Positions 2 through 17,205 of a stretch of 24,692 nt of DNA are shown piece after piece. The notes under the pieces were generated by a model. The model ran no database searches. It saw only the letters and a list, made by a program, of their open reading frames with translations, and was not told the origin of the DNA. The first letter of the stretch is position 1, and each line of letters begins with the position of its first letter. Position numbers and translations under genes: made by a program. The stretch lies in contig JALOTO010000014.1 in assembly GCA_025457845.1 (NCBI GenBank), positions 1 to 24,692 on the forward strand, written 5' to 3'. This DNA comes from Thermoplasmata archaeon. Its GTDB lineage: Archaea > Thermoplasmatota > Thermoplasmata > UBA10834.

Positions 2-1237
2 GGCCCGGCCATCACCGTGATCGATTCGGCCATATCCATGTTCGACTCCGACATACCGGCCCTGCCCGAGTACTCCTCGGACGGGAGGCCTGCGGGGAAT
101 CTGACCCTCACCGGGTCGTCCACCCTCCTGGCGGTCAACAGCCACATATCGGTGGACTTCGGGCCTGTTCTTGGTTACACGTCTTGGTTTGTTCACAATG
201 TATTGGTGCTTGACGACTTGTCCAAGGCGTATCTGTATGGAACGTCCTTCGATGAATACGTGGGAAACCTGGCCGACAGGTCATCGGCTATCGAGGCGAG
301 TGGCGCCATGGCGTCACCGGCATTGCCATCTGTGAAAGGAGCTGCGGACAACACTGGCGAGAATCTTGCCTACCTAGAGTCCCTCGACTCGATAACCTAT
401 GAGGTATCACCCCAAACTACCATGGAGATTGAGACATGGGACGTAGGCACTATATTGGATTCCATGCCAGTAAGTTCAGCGTCTATACTGGTAACCTATT
501 CAGTCGCGTCCAACTACGTTGGCACCAATGCAGTCCAGTGGGCCGAAGACGGGGGAGTCTATTCGACCACAGGAATAGTGCCCGCAAGCGATGATCTCCC
601 GAATACGGAAGCTATTTTCGAGATTCCACTTGCCTCAGTACCGACAGTTGGAGACGTTAGGACGCTTGATCTTCGCTTCGTGAACAACGGGGCTGCCGGA
701 ACTGGATCAGTTGAGTTCGACCGCGCCTGGATCCTATTCTCGATTGGCGGAAGCGCCTACATCTACAGATGGCTCAACACGACTATCGGAGATGAATATG
801 GCGTCCCGATTCCAGGTGCAACAATCACTGCCACGTTCACTGGTGCAACTGAGTTTGAGGGTCAGGACGCACTGTACTACGTCCCTGGCGGAGTCACTTC
901 CACCCCTCCATCTGAGGTCCTTGACTACCTAGGCGAGACTGCTGACTCTTATGCAACGACGAAGTCGGATGGCCGGGCAGTGATTCCGTTCCTGACCGAT
1001 TTAGTTCTAAATACCTCTGCTTCCGAAGTACTGTTCGTGGGAGCTTACGAAGTAACCGGAAGTGCAACTATAGACTCTCTGCTGTATTCGTCATCCGAGA
1101 CCTTTTCGTTCTCCGCCTACCCAGCCATGACGACTGGCGACCAGAGCGCTGACTTCACCGTCGAGCTCGTCGGCGTCGTAGCTGAGAGCCCCGACCTCGC
1201 CAGATGGCTGGTCGTCACGAGCGGCGAGCTAGTGTGA
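2..1237 (+). CDS. Large secreted surface protein, N-terminal part (cut by window edge, frameshifted at its 3' end)
   Basis: The reading frame is open from the first bases, so the true start lies left of the window; the GTG at 17 is only the first start codon inside it. The visible part is a Ser/Thr/Gly/Val-rich beta protein with no cytoplasmic features, as expected of an exported protein. Around 765-850 it has a segment beginning YIYRWLNTTI, followed by G-x-P-I-P-G-A-T, which recurs as IYRWIHVTVF in the next frame near 1672. This looks like a repeated carboxypeptidase-regulatory-like (transthyretin-like) unit. The frame ends at TGA 1235-1237, while the following sequence continues the same kind of protein in another frame. 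I therefore read this and the next entry as one gene broken by a single-base indel. Base composition from about 170 to 1130 is visibly more AT-rich than the flanks. Function unknown; surface or adhesin-like role inferred. Confidence 0.7.
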   Translation, partial: GPAITVIDSAISMFDSDIPALPEYSSDGRPAGNLTLTGSSTLLAVNSHISVDFGPVLGYTSWFVHNVLVLDDLSKAYLYGTSFDEYVGNLADRSSAIEASGAMASPALPSVKGAADNTGENLAYLESLDSITYEVSPQTTMEIETWDVGTILDSMPVSSASILVTYSVASNYVGTNAVQWAEDGGVYSTTGIVPASDDLPNTEAIFEIPLASVPTVGDVRTLDLRFVNNGAAGTGSVEFDRAWILFSIGGSAYIYRWLNTTIGDEYGVPIPGATITATFTGATEFEGQDALYYVPGGVTSTPPSEVLDYLGETADSYATTKSDGRAVIPFLTDLVLNTSASEVLFVGAYEVTGSATIDSLLYSSSETFSFSAYPAMTTGDQSADFTVELVGVVAESPDLARWLVVTSGELV

Positions 1238-4200
1238 CCTACTACCACGCCGGTGACGTGATCGTCGCTGGTGATGGCACACTCATCTTCAGGGACGCGG
1301 TGTTCCAGCTCGTACAGGACTTCGACAACCAGCGCACGGTATACGTCGATGGAGATGCCACGCTAAGGTTCGAGAACTCGGTCATCGACAGCGGCCTGGC
1401 CATCAGCTTCATTGTACAAGGCGCGGCCACGCTGGAGATCATCGGTTCCGAGATGACCGGAGTCAACATCGTCGCGAAGGAATCCGCCACTGTGATACTC
1501 GACGGATCGACGATGGATGGCACCATCACCACAAGCTGGGACTCGTTGGCGAGCATCGAGGTCTACGACACTGAGCTGACACAGGCGCCAATCCTGTCTG
1601 GCTCATCCGTCGGTCATTTCACCAACACCAGTGTCCCATCGATCACTGTTGAGGATTCCGCGGTCGCACTGATATACAGATGGATCCACGTGACTGTCTT
1701 CGACGGTGCTGGAAACCCGTTGCCATCGGCGACTGCGACAGCCAGGTTCCTCATCAACGGGACCTACTGGTCGTCTGCCACATCAGATTCGGCAGGCGTC
1801 GCCAGGGTCAACTCGCTCGGAACGATAATCACATCGTCCGGGTCCACCTTCGTCGGCAACTACAAGATCAATGTGACCTACGTCTACGACTCGGTCCCGT
1901 ACTATGCGTCTGACGAGGTCGATGTGGGTGTCATGCCGTACACGGAGCCGCTGGGCATGAACGCGACCTACACCTCCCTGACCGTTGAGGATGCACTGCC
2001 CGATCTGTTCATAGACGTCGTCGGTGCAGTCACCACCGACCCGGTATCCCCCAGGAAGGGTGAGGACACAGTCGTCACCGCAACTGTCCAGAACATAGGC
2101 ATCTCGTGGGCTTATGATGTGACGGTGGACTTCTTCGATGACGGGGTCCAATTCGGCCAGGCGATCGTTCCGCTGCTTGCCCCGGGCGAGACAGTAGATG
2201 TGACGGCAACCTGGAGCGCCGACTATCCGCTCTCGCCGAGCCAGCACAACATATCCGTCACGATTGACGCAATGGACAGCGTCCTGGAGCTCAACGATGA
2301 ATTCGCTATCGGATACGTCTTCGTGACCGTCATGAGCCTGCCAGACCTCCAGCTGACATCCACGAACATATACACGGACCCGGCTGCACCTGTGATCGAC
2401 ACACCGTGCGACCTGATGGCGACCGTGTACAACCTGGGCGACACGCCTGCCTATGATGTCACCGTGGAGTTCTACAACGGCTCAGTCTCACCCGCGTCGC
2501 TGATAAACACGACGACCATCGGCCAGATACTGGTCGGCGGCTACGGTGTAGCCTCGGTTGTCTGGACTCCTGAGTCGGTCATGCAGCACACGATATTCGT
2601 AGTGGTCAACTACCCGGCCGAGTTCGAGGAGACCTCCTACACGAACAACAACGCGAGTGCCTCCATAGCGGTCTTCGACCACCCTGACCTGGTAATCCAG
2701 GGGATGAGCTTCTCCACCGGCGACCATGTCGGCGGAGGGATGCCGGTCGAGGTCCTGGCCCAGATAATCAACATTGAGCCGGCGACGGTGGTCGACCCGG
2801 TCGTCTACATGTATGTCGATTCGATGGCCAGCGACCCGTATGCGACCACGATCGTGTATGGCACAGTCACTTCGTCCACGACTTCGCTCATCGTGAGCTT
2901 CATCTACGACGCTCCGATAGTGGATGACGACACCGACGTGGAGATATTCCTCGTGGTCAACCCGGACCATGACCCCGTCGAACAGGACTACACGAACAAC
3001 ATGGTCTCCTCGACGATAACGGTCACCGACATCAGGCCAGACGTGGCCTTGTCCACCGGTGATGTCTACGTCCTCAAGGGTGCCACCGATGTGGTCAACG
3101 GGACCTTCGGCGACCAAGTGACGATATATGTCGAACTCTACAACCTCGGACCCACTGAGACTGGCGACATAACTGTCGAGGTCGGTATCAGCGGCGAGGG
3201 AGTGAACTACACCATATCCCTTGCCCTCACGAACGTGAGTGGCGCGACGGTCGTCAACGGCCACCAGACCGTGATGGTCTCGTGGACCGTCAACATCACG
3301 GAAGGCGGTCAGTACGCAATCTGGGCCATGGCGGACGTCTATGGGAACTGCTCGGAGCAGAGCGAGGTCAACAACTTCGCCTCGGCCGAGTTCGAGGTCC
3401 TCAACCTGGCCGTCGATATACTGGTATCTGTCTCCGACAGCGACCTGAAGGCCGGCGACTCTGTGGCGGTGACCGTTCAGATCACCCAGCAGGGCACTGG
3501 GGCGAACGTGATCGGCCTGCCGGGAGTTAACATCACTCTGCGCAACGAGGACGGCGATGTCGTCGCAGGACTGGCTGACGAGTTCACCACCAACGAGATG
3601 GGCGTCGTAACGGTAACCATCAACGTGCCGACAGGTCTGGAATCTGGCGAATACGTGGTCCGGGTCAGCGTCCTCGGCTACGACCAGGACTCGGCCCCCA
3701 TAACGATCGGAGGGGTGACGGCGAGAGGCATCCCGCTCCTGGTCTGGATCATCGTGATCGGCGCCATAGTCGCGGTCGTCGCGGGCTTCACGATATACAC
3801 CTATGTCTACGGCCTCGGCAAGATGGTCGAGTGCGGTGAGTGCGGTGCGTTCATACCGGCGGCGAGCAAGCGCTGCCCGAAGTGTGGCGTTGAGTTCGAG
3901 GTCGGCACGATGAAGTGCTCCGAGTGCGGGGCATGGGTGCCGGCGGAGTCCACCGAATGCCCGAACTGCGGCGTGAAGTTCGTCGGCGAGGAGCTGGGCG
4001 AGGAGGACTATCTCGAGAAGAAGAAGAAGGAATACGACGAGATGGTCTCCAAGTACCGCGAGCTCGCCAAGTCGGAGCTGGGCAAGAAGTTCAGCGACAA
4101 GAAGTTCGAGGAGTGGTGGAAGGGCCAGCCGACCTACATCACCTTCGACGACTGGCTGGCCAAGGAGGAGGAGAAGGCCAAGGAAGGCCCCGTCCCCTGC

Positions 4201-4500
4201 CCGGTCTGCGGATCGCTGAACCCGAAGGAGGCGACCGTCTGCCACAAGTGCGGGACGGTCTTCACGGGCGACAAGGAGGCCCCTCCGAGGTCACCGCCCC
4301 AGATACCGCCGGTCCAGCCGTCACTGGTGACGGAGGGCGCGCCGCCTGAGAGCGCCCCGTCGGATGTGCCACAGGCTGCTCCCGGAACCGCCCCGAGGAT
4401 GGTCATCAGGAGGCCCATCGACCGCAAGGTCGTGCCGAAGAAGATCATCAAGACGCCCACGAACGGTGAGGGCGGCGAGCAGAACGAGGGCGGCCAGTAG
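1204..4500 (+). CDS. CARDB-repeat surface protein with one membrane helix and three cytoplasmic zinc ribbons (C-terminal part of the preceding gene)
   Basis: Residues are numbered from ATG 1204, which is probably not a real start: no signal peptide follows it although the next 800 residues look extracellular. Residues about 12-155 are short repeated beta strands like a right-handed beta-helix, and 157-260 are a transthyretin-like unit. Four CARDB-like modules begin near L265, L379, H493 and R611, each opening with a P-D-[LV] motif. A further Ig-like domain spans about 736-838. A hydrophobic helix at about 845-868 is followed by zinc ribbons C877/C880/C891/C894, C905/C908/C919/C922 and C999/C1002/C1013/C1016. 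The second and third are separated by a charged helical stretch, and the tail is Pro- and Lys/Arg-rich. Known: CARDB is an adhesion-type beta module. Inferred: a surface protein anchored by its C-terminus that exposes zinc-binding modules to the cytoplasm, perhaps for signalling or assembly. Partner unknown. Confidence 0.8.
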   Translation: MAGRHERRASVTYYHAGDVIVAGDGTLIFRDAVFQLVQDFDNQRTVYVDGDATLRFENSVIDSGLAISFIVQGAATLEIIGSEMTGVNIVAKESATVILDGSTMDGTITTSWDSLASIEVYDTELTQAPILSGSSVGHFTNTSVPSITVEDSAVALIYRWIHVTVFDGAGNPLPSATATARFLINGTYWSSATSDSAGVARVNSLGTIITSSGSTFVGNYKINVTYVYDSVPYYASDEVDVGVMPYTEPLGMNATYTSLTVEDALPDLFIDVVGAVTTDPVSPRKGEDTVVTATVQNIGISWAYDVTVDFFDDGVQFGQAIVPLLAPGETVDVTATWSADYPLSPSQHNISVTIDAMDSVLELNDEFAIGYVFVTVMSLPDLQLTSTNIYTDPAAPVIDTPCDLMATVYNLGDTPAYDVTVEFYNGSVSPASLINTTTIGQILVGGYGVASVVWTPESVMQHTIFVVVNYPAEFEETSYTNNNASASIAVFDHPDLVIQGMSFSTGDHVGGGMPVEVLAQIINIEPATVVDPVVYMYVDSMASDPYATTIVYGTVTSSTTSLIVSFIYDAPIVDDDTDVEIFLVVNPDHDPVEQDYTNNMVSSTITVTDIRPDVALSTGDVYVLKGATDVVNGTFGDQVTIYVELYNLGPTETGDITVEVGISGEGVNYTISLALTNVSGATVVNGHQTVMVSWTVNITEGGQYAIWAMADVYGNCSEQSEVNNFASAEFEVLNLAVDILVSVSDSDLKAGDSVAVTVQITQQGTGANVIGLPGVNITLRNEDGDVVAGLADEFTTNEMGVVTVTINVPTGLESGEYVVRVSVLGYDQDSAPITIGGVTARGIPLLVWIIVIGAIVAVVAGFTIYTYVYGLGKMVECGECGAFIPAASKRCPKCGVEFEVGTMKCSECGAWVPAESTECPNCGVKFVGEELGEEDYLEKKKKEYDEMVSKYRELAKSELGKKFSDKKFEEWWKGQPTYITFDDWLAKEEEKAKEGPVPCPVCGSLNPKEATVCHKCGTVFTGDKEAPPRSPPQIPPVQPSLVTEGAPPESAPSDVPQAAPGTAPRMVIRRPIDRKVVPKKIIKTPTNGEGGEQNEGGQ

Positions 4501-4721: not shown

Positions 4722-6440
4722 TCAAACCGGTGGCGGGGGCAGGCCCGCGCCCTCTGCCAGCTTCGCCCGGACCTCCTTCATGACCTTCTCGGGGTCCTTG
4801 TAGTAGGCGGAGATGATCGTGGCGACCTTCCTGTGGTTGTCGATGCTGACCTTCTTCATGTACTCGAGGATGTCGACCCTGCGCTTGATCTCCCGCTCCA
4901 TCTCCCTCGGGGTCCAGTTGCGGGCCATCCTCACCTTCTCGTAGACATAGCTGTGGCCGCTGTAGTTGAAGGTGTCATCGGCCGGGTTCCACGTGTAGAC
5001 GGAGTTGGTGATGAGCTCGTTGGTCTCGGGGTCGATGCCGACGATCTCCGTGAGGGACTTGACGCGCCTGGTCATCTTGGTGCCGACCTTGACCTGGGCC
5101 TGCAGGAGGACCATGTTCAGCGCGGTGATGAGGGCCCTGGGCAGGTTGATCGGGTCGTTCTCCATCCTGTGTACCATCGCCTGGACGTCCTCCGCGTGGA
5201 ACGTGGAGTAGCAGGTCTTGCCGGTGGCCATCGCCTGGAAGACGACGTACGCCTCCTTGCCTCTGACCTCACCGACCATCAGGTACTGGGGCCTCTGCCT
5301 CATGGCGGCCGTGAGCAGGTCGAACATGTCTATCTCGCCGCTCGCCCTGCCCGTGATGGCGCTCTTCCCGCCGAACCCCTCCCTGGTAAGCCCAGGGACC
5401 CAGTTCTCGTGCGGGAGGTTCAGCTCCCTGGTGTCCTCTATCGAGACGATCTTCATCTGAGGAGGTATGAACAGCAGGACCGCGTTCAGCGTGGTGGTCT
5501 TCCCGCTCGCGGTGCCGCCGCAGACGAGCATCGACTGGCCGTGCTCTATCCCTATCCAGAGGTAGGCCATCATCTCGGTGCTCATGGTCTTGAACTTGAG
5601 CAGGTCCAGGGGCGTGAAGGGGTTCTCCTTGAACCGCCTTATGGTGAACGAGCTGCCCCTCTTGGTCACGTGCTTCCCGAGGGTCGCCTGCAACCTCGAG
5701 CCGTCGGGGATCGTCGCGTCGAGCAGCGGGCTGGCGACGGATATGTGCTTGCCGCACTTCTGGGCGAGCCAGACGACGAACCCGTCCAGCTCCACCTCGG
5801 ACGTGAACCTCAGGTTGGACCTTATCGAACCATACTTCCTGTGATATATGTAGAGGGGGACGTCGACTCCGTCGCACGAGCAGTCCTCGACGTTCGGGTC
5901 GGTCATCATGGCGTCGATGTAGCTGTACCCGACGAAGTCCCTCAGGAGGTAGTACATCACCCGCTCCTTGGAGATCGGGTTGAGCGTTATGGCCAGCTCG
6001 GACATGAGGTTCTCTATGATCCGCCTGAGGTACTTCTCCTTGTCAGCGGCGAGCTCCTCGGTCATGTGCTCGACGCGCGCGATCAGGGTCTCCTTGAGCA
6101 GGGCGAGCACGTCCTTCTCGTCGTCGCTGAGCTTCGGCTCGATGACCTCATACAGGTACTCGTTGGCCTTGTTGTCGTACTTGATCCTGACATAGGAGTA
6201 GTTCTTCTTCACGGGGAGGATCTCGACCTCGTCGACGTTCTCCTCCATGAGCTTCGGGATCTCGGTGATCTGGGTGGGATCGAGCCTGGCCGTGGTCGAG
6301 GAGACCAGGATCCTGGTCGGCCTCGGCCTCAGCTTCATGAGGAGCCCGAAGTAGGCGGCCATGAACCCGGGGCCCTTGCCCTTCGGCTCGTCGTCCTTCT
6401 CCGTCACCGCCTCGGCCTTCTCGTGGACTGTCTCGGTCAT
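4722..6440 (-). CDS. Type II/IV secretion-system ATPase B (GspE/TadA/ArlI family)
   Basis: This is the AAA-type motor that would power pilin or filament subunit movement at the inner face of the membrane; 572 residues from the chosen start. Residues about 1-200 are the family's charged N-terminal domain. The ATPase core carries Walker A GGTASGKTT (K314), the Asp box IEDTRELNLPHENW, Walker B MVGEVRG (E391) and the His box STFHAED (H415). All signature residues are intact, so it should be active. The ATG at 6440 lies 4 bases after the stop of the upstream platform gene; a TTG at 6452 would add four residues and is less likely. It is clearly paralogous to the ATPase at 8427-10199, sharing for example RDFVGY and CDGV-x-[VI]-PL. 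It is last in the operon. Assignment to the superfamily is firm; which filament it serves is not known. Confidence 0.93.
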   Translation of the reverse strand: MTETVHEKAEAVTEKDDEPKGKGPGFMAAYFGLLMKLRPRPTRILVSSTTARLDPTQITEIPKLMEENVDEVEILPVKKNYSYVRIKYDNKANEYLYEVIEPKLSDDEKDVLALLKETLIARVEHMTEELAADKEKYLRRIIENLMSELAITLNPISKERVMYYLLRDFVGYSYIDAMMTDPNVEDCSCDGVDVPLYIYHRKYGSIRSNLRFTSEVELDGFVVWLAQKCGKHISVASPLLDATIPDGSRLQATLGKHVTKRGSSFTIRRFKENPFTPLDLLKFKTMSTEMMAYLWIGIEHGQSMLVCGGTASGKTTTLNAVLLFIPPQMKIVSIEDTRELNLPHENWVPGLTREGFGGKSAITGRASGEIDMFDLLTAAMRQRPQYLMVGEVRGKEAYVVFQAMATGKTCYSTFHAEDVQAMVHRMENDPINLPRALITALNMVLLQAQVKVGTKMTRRVKSLTEIVGIDPETNELITNSVYTWNPADDTFNYSGHSYVYEKVRMARNWTPREMEREIKRRVDILEYMKKVSIDNHRKVATIISAYYKDPEKVMKEVRAKLAEGAGLPPPPV

Positions 6441-6444
6441 GGGA

Positions 6445-7383
6445 TCACGCAAACAACAACCTGAGCATTACGAACCCGGCCAGCAGCATGATGAAGCTGT
6501 GCCTCATCCCTATCGGGATGCTCCCCTTCTGGATGACGCCCGCGAGGATTCCGTCGCCTATCGCGTGCACCACCACGGAGAGCAGGAACACGAACGACAC
6601 ATCAGCGATCACCGACACCTGGATGTTCACACCTGGTATCTCGGCTAGCCCCTGCTCCGCCGCCGCCTCGCTGACCGTGCGCCCAGCCTCCTCCATCTTG
6701 GGGAGGAACTGTATCTGGAGGATCAGGATGGTGGCGATGAACACGAAGAACGAGATGTAGACGACCATGACGTAGGTGGACATCGTGACGTTCCTCTCCT
6801 CCTGCGTCAGGATGGATTCCTTGGCGTCGTGGGACACCATGCTGAGGACGTCGGCCACGTTGCCGCCCGCGTCGTTCGCCTTCCTGATGATCGAGGACAT
6901 CCTGGTCACCAGCGGGGTCTTGACCCTCTCCGCGAAGAGCCTTATGGCCTCTGAGGCGGGGACGCCCCACTCGATCTGGGCGGCCATCTTCTTGATCTCA
7001 GGGGTGAGCCGGCCGTACCTGCCGGTCGAGGCCACGACTATGGCGTCGGCCAGGGTCATGCCGAACCTGCCTGCCTCCGCGACATCCCTGAGGAAGTCGG
7101 GAAGCCTCGTCTCTATCTCGCCGGTGTGCCTCTCCTTGGCGCTCATGTAGAACCCGAGCGGTCCGAGGAAGGCCAGCATCGCGAATATCACCCAGTCCAC
7201 TGGTTCGAGCGGGAGAGGCAGGCTGCCGAGGTTGTCGAGGAATGCGAGGAAGATGCACAGGGCGGCGATGCCTGCCGAGGCGCCAAGCAGGGTCTTGGTG
7301 AGGTCGGCCGCTTCGGTGGCCAGTATCCTCTTGAGGGCCTTGTCCCTCTCCTTCTGGGTCATGGCCTTGCTTGACTCCTCCAT
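6445..7383 (-). CDS. Type II secretion F-family membrane platform protein B (TadC/ArlJ-like)
   Basis: This is the polytopic membrane platform that couples the ATPase to pilin assembly; 312 residues. Predicted membrane segments lie at about 32-50, 62-80, 203-225, 258-280 and 293-311. The cytoplasmic GspF-like helical domain at about 93-200 includes the LPDFLRDVAEAGRFGMTLADAI stretch (positions 94-115) typical of archaeal members. Its ATG overlaps the stop of the upstream platform gene in a TGATG, so the two are probably translationally coupled. The downstream ATPase starts 4 bases after its stop. It pairs with platform protein A in the manner of TadB/TadC in Tad-type systems. Family assignment is confident from topology and motif; substrate unknown. 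Confidence 0.9.
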   Translation of the reverse strand: MEESSKAMTQKERDKALKRILATEAADLTKTLLGASAGIAALCIFLAFLDNLGSLPLPLEPVDWVIFAMLAFLGPLGFYMSAKERHTGEIETRLPDFLRDVAEAGRFGMTLADAIVVASTGRYGRLTPEIKKMAAQIEWGVPASEAIRLFAERVKTPLVTRMSSIIRKANDAGGNVADVLSMVSHDAKESILTQEERNVTMSTYVMVVYISFFVFIATILILQIQFLPKMEEAGRTVSEAAAEQGLAEIPGVNIQVSVIADVSFVFLLSVVVHAIGDGILAGVIQKGSIPIGMRHSFIMLLAGFVMLRLLFA

Positions 7384-8168
7384 CAGATCGCACTCTCCTT
7401 GGACATGTTCCAGATGACGAAGACGAAGCCGAACTGCGAGATGGGGATCATGCCCAGGACCACCATGTAGAGCAGGAGGACCATGGAGTCAGGGTCCCCG
7501 CCGCCGACGATCGCCATGATGGCCATTATGAGCACGAGGAACAGGGGGAACGCGACCACGACTGTGACGAACGACTCGGCCAGCATCCCGAGGGTCTCCA
7601 TCTGCGCCTTGAGGGCCAGCTTGTTCTCCTTCTGGTACTCCTCGGCCTTGAGCAGGAAGTACGGCTTGAGCTGCCCTCCCGAGGTCGAGGTCGTGATGAC
7701 GCCCTGCAGGAAGTCCTGGAACTTGGCCGAGGGCGATCTCTTCGCGGCCTTCTTGATGGCGGTGAGTATGTCGGAACCCAGGAGTTCCGTGTCCCTGGTG
7801 ATCCAGGCAGCCTCCGCGGCTATCTCGCCATAGATGCGCTGCCTCGAGAGTTCCTTGAATATGACATCGATGTTGACATCCGCCGACGCCATGGCCGATA
7901 TGAAGCTCATGGCTGCCGCGATGCGGCGGTCTATGTCCTTGCCACGTGACTTCGCCTTGGACGAGGGCGAGCCCAGCAGGATGAAGTACCCCATGAGGGG
8001 CAGCATGAATATCGCCGCGGCGGCTATGAGGACCCTCAGGACCATCCCGACGCCGAGGAACCCGAACAGGACCAGGCCCACGCCTACACCGATGCCCACG
8101 CCGATCACGGCCGCGATGATGGTGCTCATGAGGACGTACGCGTAGTACTCCTCGGGCCTGATCTTCAT
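7383..8168 (-). CDS. Type II secretion F-family platform protein A, C-terminal fragment of a split gene
   Basis: This 261-residue frame has membrane segments at about 12-34, 40-65, 199-221 and 228-254. A cytoplasmic F-domain lies between, with the family-typical pattern at about 80-200 (for example MSFISAMASADVNI). It lacks the soluble N-terminal part expected of the family, which is found in the adjoining frame at 8165-8434. Removing one copy of the 20-bp tandem repeat at 8168-8207 joins the two frames exactly: the junction then reads ESLLKAHMKIRPEEYY, giving one protein of about 343 residues. As sequenced, its ATG overlaps the stop of the N-terminal fragment in an ATGA, so coupled re-initiation could still yield this polypeptide. 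It could be a functional split, a switchable state, a mutation, or an assembly error. Confidence 0.85.
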   Translation of the reverse strand: MKIRPEEYYAYVLMSTIIAAVIGVGIGVGVGLVLFGFLGVGMVLRVLIAAAAIFMLPLMGYFILLGSPSSKAKSRGKDIDRRIAAAMSFISAMASADVNIDVIFKELSRQRIYGEIAAEAAWITRDTELLGSDILTAIKKAAKRSPSAKFQDFLQGVITTSTSGGQLKPYFLLKAEEYQKENKLALKAQMETLGMLAESFVTVVVAFPLFLVLIMAIMAIVGGGDPDSMVLLLYMVVLGMIPISQFGFVFVIWNMSKESAI

Positions 8169-8434
8169 GTGCGCTTTGAGCAGGGACTGTGCGCTTTGAG
8201 CAGGGACTCGTCGAGCTGCTGGTTGTTCGACGCCTTCTCGGTGGCGTACCTTCCCATTATCCTCCAGCAGAAGTCCTGGTACGGGGAGAGCTTGATGTAG
8301 TCGGGGATGGCGCCCTTGGGCATCTTCACCGTGTGCGGGCCGAGCGCCTCACCGGCCTGCGAGACCTTGGTCTTGAGGTACTGGGCCTGCTTGGCCGAGT
8401 CCACGCGCTTGAACAGGTCGGAGACCTCAGGCAT
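8165..8434 (-). CDS. Platform protein A, N-terminal fragment ending in a frameshifted tail
   Basis: This is an 89-residue soluble, charged piece. The ATG at 8434 is chosen because GGAGGT sits 7 bases upstream; it overlaps the end of ATPase A by 8 bases. A GTG at 8443 is less likely. The protein reads normally to DESLLKAH; then the second copy of the 20-bp repeat shifts the frame and adds the non-native tail SPCSKRT before TGA. In the single-copy form the same frame runs on into the membrane part encoded by 7383-8168. On its own it has no membrane segment, so it would not be expected to act as a platform. N-terminal cytoplasmic regions like this contact the ATPase in GspF-family proteins (family knowledge). 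Confidence 0.75.
   Translation of the reverse strand: MPEVSDLFKRVDSAKQAQYLKTKVSQAGEALGPHTVKMPKGAIPDYIKLSPYQDFCWRIMGRYATEKASNNQQLDESLLKAHSPCSKRT
8168..8207. repeat. Perfect 20-bp tandem duplication inside the platform protein A gene
   Basis: The unit TGTGCGCTTTGAGCAGGGAC occurs at 8168-8187 and again, identically and adjacently, at 8188-8207 (plus strand); the following T also matches. Twenty bases is not a multiple of three, so it shifts the coding frame. Deleting either copy restores a single open frame through 7383-8434. Confidence 0.97.
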
Positions 8435-10199
8435 CCACCGCACCTCCCACCTTTGTGACCGGGCGCATGTCCGCGCGCGGGGCGGCGTGCATGGCCTGCA
8501 TCTCCTTGCGGGCGCGCTCGGCGGTGACCTTCGGGTCCTTGTAGTACTGCCTGATCAGGCCCCAGATGTCGTTGTGGTCCTGCATGTCCTTGGCGACCAT
8601 GTACTTGACGATGTCCACGCGGCGCTCGAACTCCTGCATGAGCTCCTCGTGGGTCAGGTTCTTCATCTCCATGATCTTGTCGAACAGGAAGCTGTGACCC
8701 TTGAACACGAACTTGTCAGTGCCCTGGTCCCACTCGTAGACCGTGTTGCTGATGAGCTCGTTGGTCTCGGGCTCGAACCCGACGATCTCGATGAGGTGCT
8801 TGATGCGCCTGACCATGTCCATCCCGACCCTGGCATGGGTCTGGATGATCACGTTCCTCAGTGCCGTGAGCAGTATCCTGGGACAGTTGATGGGCGGGTT
8901 CTCGAGCCTGTTGACCATGCCCTTGACCGAGTCGGCGTGCATCGTCGAGTAGGTCGTGTGGCCGGTGGCCATCGCCTGGAACATGGTGTAGGTCTCCTTG
9001 CCCCTGACCTCACCGACTATGATGTAGTTGGGCCTCTGCCTGAGGGCCGCCCTGACGAGGTCGTACATGTCTATCTCTCCGGCCGCCTTGCCGTCCGGAC
9101 CGCGCTCGCCGCTGCCGGACCTCGTCGCGCCGGGGATCCAGTTCTCGTGAGGCAGGTTGATCTCCCTCGTGTCCTCCATGGTGATGACCTTGGCGGCCGG
9201 GGGTATGAAAAGGGATATCGCGTTCAGCGTCGCGGTCTTCCCGCTCGCTGTGCCACCGCATATGATCGCGCTCTCGCCGTGCTCCACGCTCAGCCACAGG
9301 TATGCGACGATCTCGGGGTTCGCGGTGCCGTACTTGATGAGCTCGACCGGTGTGAATGGCTTCTCCTTGAACCGTCTGATCGTGAAGGAAGCCCCTCTGG
9401 TCGTGACCTCCCTCGCGTAGGTGGCCTGGACACGGTGTCCTTCGGGGGTGGTGCCGTCGAGGATCGGGTTCGAGACGCTGAGCTGCTTCCCGCACCTCTG
9501 ACCGAGGCTGATGACGAAGGAATTGAGGTCGTTCTCATCGGCGAACGAGATGTTGGTCTTGATGCTCTCGAACTTGTTGTGGAACACGAACAGGGGGATG
9601 CCGACGCCGTCGCACGAGACGTCCTCGATGTGACCGTCGTTCATCAGGGTGTCTATCGGGCCGTATCCGACGAAGTCCCTCGTGATGAAGTACTTCATCT
9701 TGTCCTCGGAGATGGGTTCGATCCGGATGCCCCTGGACTTGATGTAGCTGTCGACGCTCTTCTCGAGGTAGCTCTTCTTGTTCATCACGTCGAGCTTCTC
9801 CCACTCGTAGTCCAGCGTCTTCTCGAAGGTCATCTTGATCGACCCGAGAAGCTCCTCCTCCTCCTCGGTCAGCTTCGGTTCGATCACGCTCAGGAGGTAG
9901 TCGCTCGTCCCGGTGTTGTACGTGGCCCTGATGTAGCTGAAGGGTTCGACGACCCCGTAGAACCCGATCTCCTGGATGTTCGGGTCGGTTATGGGCGGGA
10001 CCTCGGTGTAGATGGAGCCCCTGCCGTGCTTCCACTGTCGTCTCCTGGCAGCCGCACCCTTGGCCTGCTTGACCTTGACGGGGTCCTTCTTGAGCTTGCT
10101 GAGCGCCCTGAGGTAACCGGTCATGAACGAGCCCCCGGACTGGCGCTTCCCGCGCGGGGTCGGGGCCTCCTGCTTCGGCCTGGCCTCTGTCTCCGCCAT
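8427..10199 (-). CDS. Type II/IV secretion-system ATPase A (GspE/TadA/ArlI family)
   Basis: This is a second complete secretion/pilus motor ATPase of 590 residues. It has a basic N-terminal extension (many Lys/Arg to about residue 55), an N-terminal domain to about 200, and the core: Walker A GGTASGKTA (K321), Asp box MEDTREINLPHENW, Walker B IVGEVRG (E397) and His box STMHADS (H421). Two ATGs are adjacent at 10202 and 10199. I chose 10199 because GAGGTG lies 5 bases before it but only 2 before the other. The upstream pilin-like gene ends 9 bases before this start and the platform gene downstream overlaps it, so all are one operon. It aligns well along its length with ATPase B. Whether the two form a mixed hexamer or drive opposite movements is unknown. 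Confidence 0.93.
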   Translation of the reverse strand: MAETEARPKQEAPTPRGKRQSGGSFMTGYLRALSKLKKDPVKVKQAKGAAARRRQWKHGRGSIYTEVPPITDPNIQEIGFYGVVEPFSYIRATYNTGTSDYLLSVIEPKLTEEEEELLGSIKMTFEKTLDYEWEKLDVMNKKSYLEKSVDSYIKSRGIRIEPISEDKMKYFITRDFVGYGPIDTLMNDGHIEDVSCDGVGIPLFVFHNKFESIKTNISFADENDLNSFVISLGQRCGKQLSVSNPILDGTTPEGHRVQATYAREVTTRGASFTIRRFKEKPFTPVELIKYGTANPEIVAYLWLSVEHGESAIICGGTASGKTATLNAISLFIPPAAKVITMEDTREINLPHENWIPGATRSGSGERGPDGKAAGEIDMYDLVRAALRQRPNYIIVGEVRGKETYTMFQAMATGHTTYSTMHADSVKGMVNRLENPPINCPRILLTALRNVIIQTHARVGMDMVRRIKHLIEIVGFEPETNELISNTVYEWDQGTDKFVFKGHSFLFDKIMEMKNLTHEELMQEFERRVDIVKYMVAKDMQDHNDIWGLIRQYYKDPKVTAERARKEMQAMHAAPRADMRPVTKVGGAVDA

Positions 10200-10208
10200 C
10201 ATCTCACC

Positions 10209-11207
10209 TCAGGATCCTCCCATCTCGCCGATGGACATCTGGATGGTAGCGCGGCTGTGGTCGAGCACGTTGACCTCGTGTATCGTGACTGTCACCGTGT
10301 AGTAGTCGGTCATCCATCCGCTGACCGAGGTCTTCACCTTGGTGACCGTGAAATCAGTATCGTATGTGAGGTCGGCCAGCGAGGCGTTGAGCTGTTTCTT
10401 GAAGTAGTTCTCCCAGGCCGAGCCGTGCTGGGTCACGATGCTGAAGACCAGGTCCGTCCCAGCGCTGGAGTTGTAGGCCGTCGTGGATGCGTAGAGGAGG
10501 TCGGCGTTGACGCCCTTCGACCCCATGCCCCCGATGGTCTTGTTGATGCCGAGGAGGTCGACCTGTGTGATCTTCACGACGCGGGAGATCGAAGTCCCGC
10601 TGACATAGTTGTTCACGCTGAACTGCGGACCGGCGATAATGAATTCACCGTTGGACTGGTTGAGGACGACCGCGCCTGCCTCGTATATCAGCGTCTGCTC
10701 CACGTAATACCTGTTGGGGCAGTAGAGTTCCAGGTACCCTCCGGCGGACCCGTCGGTCGATGGGCTGACCGTGTACTCATCAGAGGCGTAAGTGACGTTG
10801 AACCATGGATAGTTGTCCAGGCTGGCCGGCACGTACGAGAGTATCCCGGCCGTGGCTGCGGCGAATACCGGTATGCCCTCCGAGCTCAGCGTGACCGCGG
10901 CGAATATGGGGGCCGGCGCTAGGAGCTCGTTGGCGTAGTCGACGATGACGCCATCGATCTGCGCCTTCAGGGCCGCGAACTCCTGGATCGCGTCGGACAT
11001 GTGGGCGCTCTCGTTGTCGCTCATCCAGACAGGCACGAACTGGTTAGTGAACATCCCCATAAAAGTGAGGAACACCATCAACGTCATGATGGTCCCGACC
11101 GTCGCGGCGACACCCTCGTCGTCCCACCGGCGGGATTTCTTGATCCTCGGGAGGCCGTGCGTTGTCGAGTTTCTAGAGTACGCTAATCGAAGCGGAAACC
11201 AATCCAT
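10209..11207 (-). CDS. Archaeal type IV pilin-like protein with large extracellular domain
   Basis: This is the first gene of the filament operon and the likely subunit or tip/minor pilin moved by the ATPases. From ATG 11207 it has 332 residues. A basic n-region with RIKKSRRWDD is followed by EGVAATVGTIMTLMVFLTFM (31-50), the hydrophobic N-helix typical of archaeal class III signal peptides, where a prepilin peptidase would cut near the start of the hydrophobic stretch. The remainder (about 65-332) is a beta-rich, Asn/Thr/Ser-rich exported domain with several N-x-[ST] sequons. It is longer than usual major pilins, so a minor pilin is plausible. An upstream GTG at 11249 would extend it by 14 residues but would lie before the transcript start predicted from the TATA box at 11258-11265. 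No prepilin peptidase gene is in view. Confidence 0.75.
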   Translation of the reverse strand: MDWFPLRLAYSRNSTTHGLPRIKKSRRWDDEGVAATVGTIMTLMVFLTFMGMFTNQFVPVWMSDNESAHMSDAIQEFAALKAQIDGVIVDYANELLAPAPIFAAVTLSSEGIPVFAAATAGILSYVPASLDNYPWFNVTYASDEYTVSPSTDGSAGGYLELYCPNRYYVEQTLIYEAGAVVLNQSNGEFIIAGPQFSVNNYVSGTSISRVVKITQVDLLGINKTIGGMGSKGVNADLLYASTTAYNSSAGTDLVFSIVTQHGSAWENYFKKQLNASLADLTYDTDFTVTKVKTSVSGWMTDYYTVTVTIHEVNVLDHSRATIQMSIGEMGGS

Positions 11208-11257
11208 CCTACCACCGAAATGGGGGTGCTGAAGCAACCTAATCAGCACCTAGTACG

Positions 11258-12091: not shown

Positions 12092-14509
12092 CTACCTTAT
12101 GTGGTCGAGCGAGAAGGAGCCGATGCTGACGGAGCTCTTCGTCGCGCTGTAGCGGATGAAGGCCCTCGACTGCACGTCGCTTATCCCCTTGATGGACAGG
12201 AACGTGTTCAGGTTCTCGATCTTGAACTCGATCATCCCGTCCATGAGAGAGCCGAGCATCTGTATCTCCTGCTCGCCGTGGACCCCCTTCTCGATGGTGA
12301 ACATCGAGACCGCCCTGTCCCTCTTCCTCCTTCCCGCTATCGGGCTCAGGAACCTGAAGGCCGTGTTCGGGTCCAGGTATGCTATGAGGGTGGATATCGA
12401 CCTGAAGCCCACCCTGTAGTACTCGTGCTTCGACTTGAAGTCCTTCGCGACCTTCTCGATCGCCTTGGCGAGACCTTCGTAGTCGGTGGGGGAATCGACG
12501 TAGTCGGTGTACTCGTCCTGTGAGTCGTCGCCCATGCTCCTCGAGTATGAGTCGATGTACCTGACGAGCCCGCGCTTCTCGTACTCCTCGTACGCGGGGA
12601 TGACGAAAGCCATCTCCTCCCTGATCTCCTTGGAGGACTTCTCGGTGACTATCCACATCGCGGGGACGCCCTTCTTCAGCCCATCCGCGATGAATGCGCT
12701 GACGAGGACCTCCTTGCCGGCGAATGGCGGTCCATAGATCATGACGTTGGATCCGAACGGGATGCCGCCCAGGAGCAGGTCGTCCAGCCTTGACGTGCCG
12801 GTCTTGACCTTCTCCTGCTTGATCTCGAGGACGCGGTCCGCCTCGCGCTTGTCGATCTCCTCGCCAATGAGGCCCTGCTCGCGCGTCCTGAGCTCCTCCT
12901 CCTTGGCGGCGAGGTACTTCTCCTTGGAGCGGACCTCCTCCTCCTTGGCCGTGACCTCGGCCTGGAGCTCCTCGAGGCGCTTCTTCAGGGTGATCTCGTC
13001 CATGGAGGTCATCTCCGCCTTCTGCTGGGTGACCTGCTTGAGCTCTTCCTGGAGGAGCTTCTCCCTGAACATCAGGTCCTCCTCGCGCCTGAGCATCTCC
13101 GCCTCCTTGTACGCCAGAGGCTCCTTGAGTTTCCTGAAGTCCTCCTCGCGTATCCTGGCGTCTTCCTTGAGCTTCTCGATCTCCTGCTGACGGAGCATCA
13201 GGGTCCGCTCTAGCGTCTGCGCGTCCTCTAGCTTCCTCTTTATCGTCGGGTCGAGCATGCCCGAGGAGCCGGCGGAGGCCTTGATCATCTCCTCCCTGTG
13301 CTTGTACTCGACCTCCACGGTGGAGAGCTTGGTCTCCAGCTCGTGGATCCGGTCGGCATACTCCTGCTCCTTCTTCGAGTACTCCTCGGTCTGCTCGATC
13401 ATCTTGTCCTGGACCTTGGACGTGACCTTGCTGCCCTCGACGAAGCTCACTATGCCGTCCTTGAGGGTCTCCTCCTTGGCCATCAGCTGACGCTCCATCG
13501 CCTCCATGCGCGCTCCCCTCTCCGCGAGGGTCGCCTCGATGGTCGCCAGCTCCTTGGCGTCGGGCGGGAGCTCGGAGATGTTCTGCTCTAGCCTCTCCTT
13601 GAGGACCTTGATGATCTCGTCCTGCTCCATTATCTGGAGTTCGAGTTTCTCCCTGCGGGCCATCTCCGAGGCCAGCCTGTCGGCGAGGTTGTCCGCCTCA
13701 GCCTCGGCCCCTGCCCCCTGTTGGCCCTTGATGAACTTGATCACTGCGATGCTGCCCCTCTTGACGTTGTCGAGCTCCTCGCCGAGGGCGGCGTTGGCCT
13801 TCTTCTCCGCGTCCAGCTCCGCCTTCGTCCGGGCCAGCTCCTCGACAGTGGCCTGAGCGTCGAAGCCGCCCGAGTCGATCAGGCCGATCTTCTCCCTCAG
13901 TGTCTCGCGGAGCTGGATGAGCTCCGCCTCCTTCTCGAGGAGCTCCTGTGGGGGTGCCGCGGGCGCTCCTGCGCGCCTGGACGCGGGTTCGTCGAGCCAG
14001 GAGTCCAGGCCGTCCTCGCTCCCGGCGAGCCACTTGGCCAGCGAATCGCTGTGGCCCGGCTCGCTGCGCTCGGTCGCGCTGGCCGCCTCCGGGGCCTTCT
14101 CCTCGCCCGAGAGCCAGCTGGACAGCCCGTCCTCCTCCCCAGACAGCCAGTCCGCGAGGCCGGCCCCGTCCGCTCCGTCGACGGACCGCGCCCCCTTGAT
14201 TATCTTGGTGGCCAGCTTCTCGCCGATGCCCTTGATGCTCGCGAGGTCCTCGGCCTTCGCTTCCTGGATGTCCTTGACGCTCTTGTAGCCGGCCTCCCTC
14301 AGTATCTCGGCCTTCGCCTGCCCGACGCCAGGTATAGCGGTCAGTTCGTCGGTGCCTCCTGCCTCGGCCTTCGGGCTCTGGACGGCACCGCTAGCGCTGG
14401 ATGAGAGGACGTTGTAGCAGTTCTCGCACTTCTCCGTGCCCGACGGCGACTCGTGGCCGCAAATGGGGCAGACAATCCCTCCGGTCTGGCGCTTCTCGTC
14501 CTTTGGCAT
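12092..14509 (-). CDS. Zinc ribbon - helix-hairpin-helix - coiled coil - KaiC/RecA-like protein with degenerate ATP-binding motifs
   Basis: This protein has 805 residues from ATG 14509, chosen for GGAGAG 5 bases upstream; ATG 14554 would add 15 residues and has no such site. Domains in order: zinc ribbon C14/C17/C28/C31; helix-hairpin-helix pair about 54-107 (IPGVGQAKAEIL, IKGIGEKLATKI); an acidic linker with two copies of an L-x-x-W-L motif pair (W121/W132 and W160/W171); a long Glu/Lys-rich coiled coil about 195-555; and a KaiC/RadA-type core about 570-805. In the core, Walker A reads GPPFAGKE, so the Ser/Thr after K599 is Glu. The expected Walker B strand reads VGFRSIS (700-706) without the usual Asp. 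This suggests a nucleotide-binding or pseudo-ATPase scaffold. ArlH of archaella is a KaiC-like relative, so a link to the nearby filament operon is possible but unproven. Confidence 0.85.
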   Translation of the reverse strand: MPKDEKRQTGGIVCPICGHESPSGTEKCENCYNVLSSSASGAVQSPKAEAGGTDELTAIPGVGQAKAEILREAGYKSVKDIQEAKAEDLASIKGIGEKLATKIIKGARSVDGADGAGLADWLSGEEDGLSSWLSGEEKAPEAASATERSEPGHSDSLAKWLAGSEDGLDSWLDEPASRRAGAPAAPPQELLEKEAELIQLRETLREKIGLIDSGGFDAQATVEELARTKAELDAEKKANAALGEELDNVKRGSIAVIKFIKGQQGAGAEAEADNLADRLASEMARREKLELQIMEQDEIIKVLKERLEQNISELPPDAKELATIEATLAERGARMEAMERQLMAKEETLKDGIVSFVEGSKVTSKVQDKMIEQTEEYSKKEQEYADRIHELETKLSTVEVEYKHREEMIKASAGSSGMLDPTIKRKLEDAQTLERTLMLRQQEIEKLKEDARIREEDFRKLKEPLAYKEAEMLRREEDLMFREKLLQEELKQVTQQKAEMTSMDEITLKKRLEELQAEVTAKEEEVRSKEKYLAAKEEELRTREQGLIGEEIDKREADRVLEIKQEKVKTGTSRLDDLLLGGIPFGSNVMIYGPPFAGKEVLVSAFIADGLKKGVPAMWIVTEKSSKEIREEMAFVIPAYEEYEKRGLVRYIDSYSRSMGDDSQDEYTDYVDSPTDYEGLAKAIEKVAKDFKSKHEYYRVGFRSISTLIAYLDPNTAFRFLSPIAGRRKRDRAVSMFTIEKGVHGEQEIQMLGSLMDGMIEFKIENLNTFLSIKGISDVQSRAFIRYSATKSSVSIGSFSLDHIR

Positions 14510-14647
14510 CCGGGCTCTCCACAAACCTTGAGACAAACCACCTGATCTCTTCATGAGGGGGTGCTCGTCATCCGGGGCGGTCAGATACCGCCGGTCCGGG
14601 TCGCGAGCATCGAGGCCAGTCTTGTCGGTCTAAATAGCCTTAACGGG

Positions 14648-14657: not shown

Positions 14658-14796
14658 CCTCGCGAAACACAGAAGAACCTCGTCCCAGAACCCCGCCCCT
14701 CCCCCCCGTCACCCGCTCTCCCGCGTGCGAGCCAGTCCGCGCGCGCGTGGAAACCAAAAGGACATTATCCCGCCCAGTCATACCATCGTCGCCACC

Positions 14797-17205
14797 ATGG
14801 TCGATGAGAAGAAGGCCAAGAAGGAACGGCCCGAGCGGGTGGGCGTGTACGTCTGTCACTGCGGCACCAACATCGCCGGGACCGTCGACTGCAAATCGGT
14901 AACGGAATACGCGAAGGGCATAGACGATGTCGTCGTTGCTAGGGACAACGTCTACACCTGTTCTGAGCCCGGTCAGAACCAGATAGCCGAGGATATCAAG
15001 AACCTCCATCTCACGAAGGTCGTCGTCGCCTCCTGTTCCCCGAAGATGCACGAGAAGACCTTCAGGAAGACGGTCAGCGACGCCGGCCTCAACCCCTACA
15101 ACCTCGAGATGGTCAACCTGAGGGAGCAGTGCTCCTGGGTCCACAAGGACAAGGCCGAGGCCACGAAGAAGGCGAAGGACCTTGTCCGCGGAGGGATCAG
15201 GAGGGCTTCCGAGCTCGAGGACCTGTTCCCCAAGGAGGTCGAGGTCAGCAAGGAGGCGCTGGTCATCGGCGGCGGGATCGCCGGGATATCCGCCGCCCTC
15301 CAGCTGGCCAGCTCTGGGTACAAGGTGCATCTCGTGGAGCGCAGGTTCAGCATCGGCGGGAGGATGGCCCAGCTGAGCAAGACCTTCCCGACGCTGGACT
15401 GCGCCCCGTGTATCCTCAGTCCGAGGATGGTCGAGGTCGCGGCCCACCCCAACGTCACTCTCTACTCGGGCAGCGAGGTCATCGGCGTCACTGGAGCTCC
15501 CGGCAACTACAAGGTCAGTGTCAAGGTCCGGCCGAGGGGCGTCGACCCGAAGAAATGCATCGGCTGCGCCAAGTGCGAGAAGGTCTGCCCCGCCAAGGTC
15601 CCCAACGAGTTCGAGGAGTGCCTCTACGAGCGCAAGGCGATCCACAAGCCGTTCCCCCAGGCCGTCCCAGCGTCGTATGTCATCGATTTCGACAGCTGCA
15701 AGGAGTGCGGCGCGTGCGCCAAGGTCTGCTCAGCCAAGGCGATAGACCTAGAGGACAAGGGAAGGACCGTGGAACTCGAGGTGGGCGCGATAATCGTCGC
15801 CGCGGGCTTCGACACGTTCGACGTGAAGAAGCTCAAGGAGTACGACACCTCGCTACCAGACGTCATAACGGCCACCCAGATGGAGCGCCTCATGATCAAC
15901 GAGTGCGGGGCGGGTATGGTCCTCAAGAGGAAGGCCGACGGCAACCGCGTGAAGAAGGTGGCCTTCGTCCTCTGCGCCGGCTCGCGAACGAGGAAGACCG
16001 GCGTCCCGTACTGCAGCAAGGTCTGCTGCAACTATGCGATAAAGCAGGCGGTCATCCTCAGGAAGACCTTCCCGTACATGCAGGTCTACGTGTACTACAT
16101 CGACATCAGGTCCGCCGGCCGCGGGTTCGAGGAGTTCTACGCGCGGTCGATGGAGGAGTTCGGCGTCAGGTACATCCACGGAAAGGTCGCGGACATCCAG
16201 AAGGGCAGGGGCGGGATACTGGTCCGCGCCGAGGACATAACGCTGGGCGAGATAATCGAGACCGAGTACGACATGGTCGTGCTGTGCCCTGCAATGCTCC
16301 CATCGGACGGGACGGAGCCTCTGGCCAGGATGCTCAAGGTCCCTCTGGGCGAGGACGGGTTCATCTCGGAGAAGCATCCGAAGCTCGACCCGGTGTCGAC
16401 CCACCGGACCGGCGTGTTCGCGGCAGGCGCCGTGCTCGGCCCGCGAGACGTACGGGACAGCGTCGTGGACGGGAGGGGCACCGCAGCGCATGTCATCGAG
16501 TTCCTGGGGTCGGGCAGGATGTCGATCGACCCAGCCAAGGCGTTCATCGTCGATGCTGGGAGGTGCATACAATGCAAGGCATGCGAGGTGGTCTGCCCTG
16601 TGCGGGCGATCGCCGTCTCCGACCTCCCGCAGATAGACCAGATCGCGTGCATCGGCTGCGGTGCCTGCGTCTCCGAGTGCCCGACCCGGGTCTTCGACCT
16701 CGCTCATTACACTGACACCCAGGTGAGGGCCGAGGTCGAGGGGCTGCTCTCCGGCGAGGGCGACGACGTCAGGGTGATAGGCTTCTTCGGCGACGTGCTC
16801 GCGTACGTCGCCGCGGACACTGCTGGTACGGCCAGGATGGAGTATCCAGCGGCCATAAGGATGATGCGCGTTCCATCGGCGGCGCGCGTCGCGAGGCGCG
16901 AGATCCTAGAGGCGTTCGCCATGGGCGCCGACGGAGTCATGCTCTCTGACGAGGAGGGCGGGGAGATCGGGCACATCGTCGAGGGGCGCATCAAGGCGCT
17001 CGGCCCCGAGCTCGATTCCCTCGGCATAGGCAAGGAGCGCCTGACTTTCGTCCCGATGCTTCTGCCAATCTACAAGGTCCTCCCCAAGATGATCGACACC
17101 TTCGACAAGAAGGTCCGGCAGATGGGCAGGGTCCCGAAGGAGGCGAGGGAGCGCGCCCTCGCGGCGTCCAAGGTGCAGAGCGAGCCCGTCTTCAGGCCGA
17201 AATGA
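14797..17205 (+). CDS. HdrA-family FAD/iron-sulfur protein with cysteine-less MvhD-like C-terminal domain
   Basis: HdrA is the flavin-bifurcating subunit of heterodisulfide reductase-type complexes, moving electrons between a donor, ferredoxin and a disulfide-reducing partner (family knowledge). It has 802 residues from ATG 14797. The N-terminal cluster domain starts VCHCG (C20, C22), and the FAD-binding fold begins GGGIAG (158-163). Paired 4Fe-4S motifs lie at C254/257/260/264 and C301/304/307/311. The HdrA signature PYCSKVCCNYAIKQA follows, then a C-terminal ferredoxin pair at C590/593/596/600 and C618/621/624/628. Residues about 658-775 resemble MvhD (IGFF..., MMRVPSAARV, AFAMGADGV), but all its 2Fe-2S cysteines are replaced. 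No hdrB, hdrC or hydrogenase genes are nearby, so partners are encoded elsewhere. Soluble cytoplasmic protein expected. Confidence 0.93.
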   Translation: MVDEKKAKKERPERVGVYVCHCGTNIAGTVDCKSVTEYAKGIDDVVVARDNVYTCSEPGQNQIAEDIKNLHLTKVVVASCSPKMHEKTFRKTVSDAGLNPYNLEMVNLREQCSWVHKDKAEATKKAKDLVRGGIRRASELEDLFPKEVEVSKEALVIGGGIAGISAALQLASSGYKVHLVERRFSIGGRMAQLSKTFPTLDCAPCILSPRMVEVAAHPNVTLYSGSEVIGVTGAPGNYKVSVKVRPRGVDPKKCIGCAKCEKVCPAKVPNEFEECLYERKAIHKPFPQAVPASYVIDFDSCKECGACAKVCSAKAIDLEDKGRTVELEVGAIIVAAGFDTFDVKKLKEYDTSLPDVITATQMERLMINECGAGMVLKRKADGNRVKKVAFVLCAGSRTRKTGVPYCSKVCCNYAIKQAVILRKTFPYMQVYVYYIDIRSAGRGFEEFYARSMEEFGVRYIHGKVADIQKGRGGILVRAEDITLGEIIETEYDMVVLCPAMLPSDGTEPLARMLKVPLGEDGFISEKHPKLDPVSTHRTGVFAAGAVLGPRDVRDSVVDGRGTAAHVIEFLGSGRMSIDPAKAFIVDAGRCIQCKACEVVCPVRAIAVSDLPQIDQIACIGCGACVSECPTRVFDLAHYTDTQVRAEVEGLLSGEGDDVRVIGFFGDVLAYVAADTAGTARMEYPAAIRMMRVPSAARVARREILEAFAMGADGVMLSDEEGGEIGHIVEGRIKALGPELDSLGIGKERLTFVPMLLPIYKVLPKMIDTFDKKVRQMGRVPKEARERALAASKVQSEPVFRPK

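Follow-up and report, generated by a model that had tools for sequence, protein, structure and literature searches.

In the accessible part of its description, the CdiP pilus of Cuniculiplasma divulgatum combines a platform encoded as two proteins, CdiPFa and CdiPFb, with two ATPases, CdiPE1 and CdiPE2, and the pair of ATPases is called unique there among the reported archaeal operons (PMC12448462). Archaeal ATPase/TadC modules have also been described in PMC4858521, in whose excerpted text a platform split does not appear. We analyzed a stretch of 24,692 nucleotides from a Thermoplasmata archaeon (contig JALOTO010000014.1, hereafter the window), which, as far as the published description of CdiP extends, resembles the Cuniculiplasma system in carrying, within one cluster, a pair of secretion ATPases together with separate genes for the N-half and the C-half of the platform. 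The difference is that the N-half gene of the window is broken again by a 20-bp tandem duplication, whereas the relatives examined lack this break. The features of the locus are as follows:

17..4500, plus strand: CARDB/zinc-ribbon surface-protein gene, convergent, in frames 17-1237 and 1204-4500, with a second frame break at about 1216-1234
4722..6452, minus strand: secretion ATPase 1, unbroken (PF00437, 4.6e-32)
6445..7383, minus strand: platform C (C-terminal half), unbroken, with a TGATG overlap with the preceding gene (PF00482, 2.2e-17; C-half of the ArlJ model)
7383..8168, minus strand: platform N fragment 2, 261 aa (PF00482, 1.5e-12; hydropathy)
8165..8168, minus strand: ATGA stop/start overlap (from the reading frames)
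8165..8434, minus strand: platform N fragment 1, 89 aa plus stop, with the tail SPCSKRT (aligns with residues 1-82 of homologue P0001)
8168..8187, plus-strand order: 20-bp unit, copy 1, exact tandem repeat
8188..8207, plus-strand order: 20-bp unit, copy 2, exact tandem repeat; with base 8208, the match reaches 21
8427..10202, minus strand: secretion ATPase 2, unbroken (PF00437, 1.9e-33; archaellum motor ATPase model below cut-off)
10209..11249, minus strand: pilin-like surface protein, assigned by eye (weak DUF7289 match below cut-off; syntenic in relatives)

The split gene encodes the N-terminal half of the platform in a type IV pilus-like locus that is related to Thermoplasmata. Read along the minus strand, the order is pilin-like protein, ATPase, broken platform N, platform C and ATPase, followed by the convergent surface-protein gene, and from the first ATPase onward the pilus genes overlap end to end. 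Platform C and both ATPases are intact, with 72-89% identity to their counterparts in 11 related loci (10 for ATPase 2); for the pilin-like protein, identity is 51-60% across the 9 related loci that carry its gene. Both ATPases and both half-platforms were found in 13 of the 14 related loci viewed (L004, L005, L007, L008, L009, L011, L012, L013, L016, L018, L021, L026 and L045); the remaining one, L003, ends before ATPase 2. A pair of genes thus normally encodes the platform here; it is the first of the pair that the duplication breaks once more. Adjoining the pilus locus, positions 12092-14554 of the window encode a protein with a helix-hairpin-helix, a long middle part and a KaiC-like ATPase domain, the gene for which lies beside the pilus locus in most of the 14 related loci viewed. 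Positions 14725-17205 encode, in one frame, an HdrA2-like protein with an FlpD domain.

The initial annotation had interpreted the two frames as pieces of one GspF-family protein of about 343 residues, and the protein comparisons bear this out for a T2SSF/GspF-family platform protein. On the minus strand, fragment 1 starts with ATG at 8434 and stops with TGA at 8167-8165; fragment 2 starts with ATG at 8168 and stops at 7385-7383, so that the two share the annotated ATGA at 8165-8168. Both the 261-aa fragment and the adjacent platform C gene contain the T2SSF domain (PF00482), scoring above cut-off, and platform N and platform C match, respectively, the N-half (6-246) and the C-half (269-536) of the 555-position ArlJ model, below its equivalog cut-off. 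Hydropathy analysis revealed three strongly hydrophobic stretches in the 261-aa fragment and none in the 89-aa fragment. The closest homologue among the matches listed, P0001, has 343 aa, exactly the sum of the 82 aligned residues and the 261 of fragment 2, to which it is 93% identical over 261 aa, and is continuous at the split site. All 120 homologous proteins among the matches listed, out of 1,859 found, likewise continue across the junction.

A sequence-profile search for relatives of the platform with solved structures yielded no match at E ≤0.01. When a whole-protein model of P0001 (mean pLDDT 73.7, pTM 0.53) was compared with solved structures, EpsF, OutF and PilC domains were among the top 14 ranks with probabilities of 0.98-1.00, but with E ≥0.35. 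In this model, residues 1-46 fall below pLDDT 50, and the first piece is thus predicted to contain little confidently folded structure. The split position falls at residues 81-86, in a loop that joins a short helix to the first of the long helices; given this predicted position, assembly of the half-platform from two pieces is conceivable and might occur.

The tandem duplication that separates the frames is, as had been annotated, perfect: the units at 8168-8187 and 8188-8207 are identical, and the period-20 match comprises 21 bases, spanning 8168-8208. By our own arithmetic for a window-sized sequence (~0.26 per base), 21 consecutive exact matches at one given spacing have a probability of ~1e-8, and the duplication is beyond chance. 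The unit does not occur elsewhere in the window on either strand. A clade-wide excess of short tandem duplications was considered and rejected: a search for exact tandem duplications with units of 15-120 bp in 157 related loci (1.13 Mb, partly redundant) turned up just one more, with a 24-bp unit, and a search of 113 loci for units of 12-120 bp returned 4, all with units that are multiples of three.

To assess the copy number of the unit in relatives, we compared 65 sequence-distinct related loci (at least 50% identity, match beginning no later than residue 5 of the 261-aa fragment, identical flanks merged), some of which share a genome (for example, L002 with L010 and L003 with L054). In all 65, none of which was found to be conspecific with the window, the unit is present in a single copy and the two parts of the gene abut without a gap and in frame. 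A DNA alignment with 10 relatives showed the same 20-nt extra stretch in the window; the nearest DNA among the 17 genomes searched is 77% identical. In a wider platform search, 186 of 400 genomes matched, with at least four open frames shorter than 300 aa among the matches listed. One of these, in G020, sits at the start of a contig; the remaining three, when fetched, carry one copy and read straight through the site (3/3), two of them stopping at a contig end and the third (L160) being interrupted further on by a stretch of N. Split platforms elsewhere were rejected on this basis. A repeat hot spot was likewise rejected, because the second copy is absent from every relative examined (the 65 loci, the 10-relative alignment and the three fetched frames), and there is no standing repeat tract at the locus in these relatives. 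Judging from these comparisons, the duplication appears to be private to the sequenced strain or population.

Because the gene is whole in the relatives examined, a one-off mutation or an assembly error would account for the locus better than an evolved switch. We favor, with a probability of roughly 0.55, a recent spontaneous 20-bp duplication, private to the strain or population, that damages the platform N gene of a CdiP-like pilus. The duplication would shift the frame in the N-terminal half-platform gene, so that the ribosome would terminate after 89 aa at a TGA lying out of frame under a conserved Met-Lys. The 261-aa remainder with its predicted membrane helices could then be made only through re-initiation at the overlapping ATG, and the pilus would likely be lost or reduced. 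Since a perfect tandem repeat can slip back, which would restore the gene, the lesion may be reversible in principle.

An assembly or sequencing artefact is the main rival, ranking close behind the private duplication, and is a serious, if less probable, reading. Here, the organism would have one copy, and the consensus would be in error at the duplication and possibly at the second break of the contig, too. Such an error would fit the intact P0001 gene, the closest among the matches listed, and the outcome of a search with the 89-aa frame among proteins of ~49-155 aa, which placed the split product in one cluster only, with a contig of 24,692 bases, as long as the window itself; yet that cluster is counted at two member sequences. 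Furthermore, a perfect 20-bp tandem duplication is atypical of base-calling errors, and a stretch of 41 bases lies within the span of ordinary reads.

The second break, at about 1216-1234 in the surface-protein gene, bears on the artefact as well. The frame is open at this position in at least eight loci among the matches listed. Across 17 genomes, the site is read open in 11, the other six being cut by contig ends or having no usable match. A sister protein, P0123, also reads through. Pointing the other way, P0123 itself starts only 81 residues upstream, and the homologue P0124 (59% identical, on a contig of 337,035 bases) is seemingly broken within ~10 codons of the second break of the window, as judged from the protein start (residues 1-20) alone. 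A wider search for the surface gene matched 50 of 400 genomes, 13 of them with frames shorter than 1,500 aa, and all 13 short frames lie within 1.6 kb of an upstream contig end. Recurrent breakage near 1216-1234 was rejected given the 11 open genomes and the contig ends adjoining the short frames; P0124 stands apart.

We then compared rates of frame breakage. The window has 2 breaks in 16.3 kb aligned versus 5 in 386 kb of relatives' loci (54 loci; P 0.02-0.03), a test that favors the artefact but carries a bias, since the window was chosen for one of its two breaks; when only the second break is counted, the probability of at least one is 0.19. Weighing against the artefact, no break was seen in any of the eight other genes compared on the contig. 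The background breaks, from genomes that are mostly metagenome-assembled, affect HdrA of L007, the ATPase and KaiC genes of L025, g11597 of L026 and platform C of L040, two of them on one contig. We excluded from the count by eye three ATP1 rows (L007, L008 and the window), where the stop-to-stop query enters the overlapping neighbor, and two g17529 rows (L007 and L011), which reflect an upstream extension.

The initial annotation had gone further and proposed an on/off or split/fused switch, in which frequent gain and loss of one 20-bp copy would toggle the pilus platform, with the ATGA permitting coupled re-initiation. In Haloferax volcanii, ATGA overlaps can indeed couple translation: in the available text of Huber et al., strict coupling is reported for all nine native Haloferax pairs tested, beginning with four AUGA overlaps picked for strong SD motifs (PMC6728339). 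The window pair has the same four-base stop/start overlap as these termination-reinitiation pairs; however, the four AUGA pairs of Haloferax are native and were picked for strong SD motifs, whereas the overlap here is derived from a frameshift and shows none. Upstream of the native start (8434) lies GGAGGTG, which we take to be a ribosome-binding-like motif, and none resembling a ribosome-binding or SD motif was apparent by eye before the second ATG at 8168.

To trace the origin of the overlap, we inspected the homologous place in 64 relatives, the count being 64 because 100 bases upstream were also required. A latent ATGA is present within the unbroken gene in 47, including all 18 with at least 75% protein identity, owing to a conserved Met with Lys or Arg as the next residue. 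In 21 of these 47, the hidden frame stays open for at least 7 codons; in the other 26, it closes within three or four. Unless an earlier stop intervenes, translation shifted into this frame shortly before the site ends at the latent ATGA. In none of the 65 relatives is there a native gene boundary at this site. Given how widely it is latent, the overlap looks incidental, a by-product of the shifted frame, and evolved translational coupling was rejected. Thus, the proposal of coupled re-initiation holds in so far as such overlaps can couple in archaea; at the second ATG of the window, re-initiation is possible but probably weak.

The evolved switch itself fares poorly and is, in our judgment, improbable. 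In its favor are the perfect, out-of-frame tandem repeat in a surface-filament gene, the intrinsic instability of such repeats, the potential for re-initiation, and the predicted loop at residues 81-86, which might let the pieces still assemble. There is also a bacterial precedent: pneumococcal capsule genes, including cap8E and tts, are reported to be switched by spontaneous duplications of regions within the open frame (Waite 2001, 2003, cited in the accessible part of PMC4243769). As in the window, these are duplications inside the open frame of a surface-structure gene, reversible in principle; but phase variation has been reported for the capsule in that account, whereas the duplication in the window is known from one contig alone. 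Against the switch, the repeat occurs in 0 of 65 relatives, there are just two copies rather than a standing array, and the ATGA is latent in the relatives and lacks a ribosome-binding-like motif. Given the capsule precedent, as far as that source describes it, the duplication mechanism would not be new. Our literature search returned no comparable example from archaea, although this does not prove that none has been published. To our knowledge, phase variation is little documented in archaea.

We consider it very improbable that one-copy and two-copy alleles are kept as an archaeal pilus switch, perhaps against viruses that use the pilus, with the second break being part of the same surface loss or variation. 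The least probable reading is a fixed functional split, in which the lineage would build the half-platform from two subunits atop the older N-half/C-half division: separate genes already encode the two platform halves in the related loci and, by the available description, in Cuniculiplasma, and the break falls at a predicted loop, but the 89-aa product ends in out-of-frame sequence, the split is not seen in P0001 (the closest among the matches listed), and the copies are still identical, which leaves no evident time for adaptation.

If the private duplication is real, it would add an uncultured archaeon to the examples of surface-structure genes inactivated by a short tandem duplication. The locus also carries a caution for genome annotation: because Met-Lys and Met-Arg codons can carry a hidden stop, a single frameshift can yield a seemingly ATGA-coupled gene pair. 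More interesting than the duplication is the layout shared by the relatives: the combination of two ATPases with a split platform, described for one cultured species, occurs in 13 of the 14 related loci viewed.
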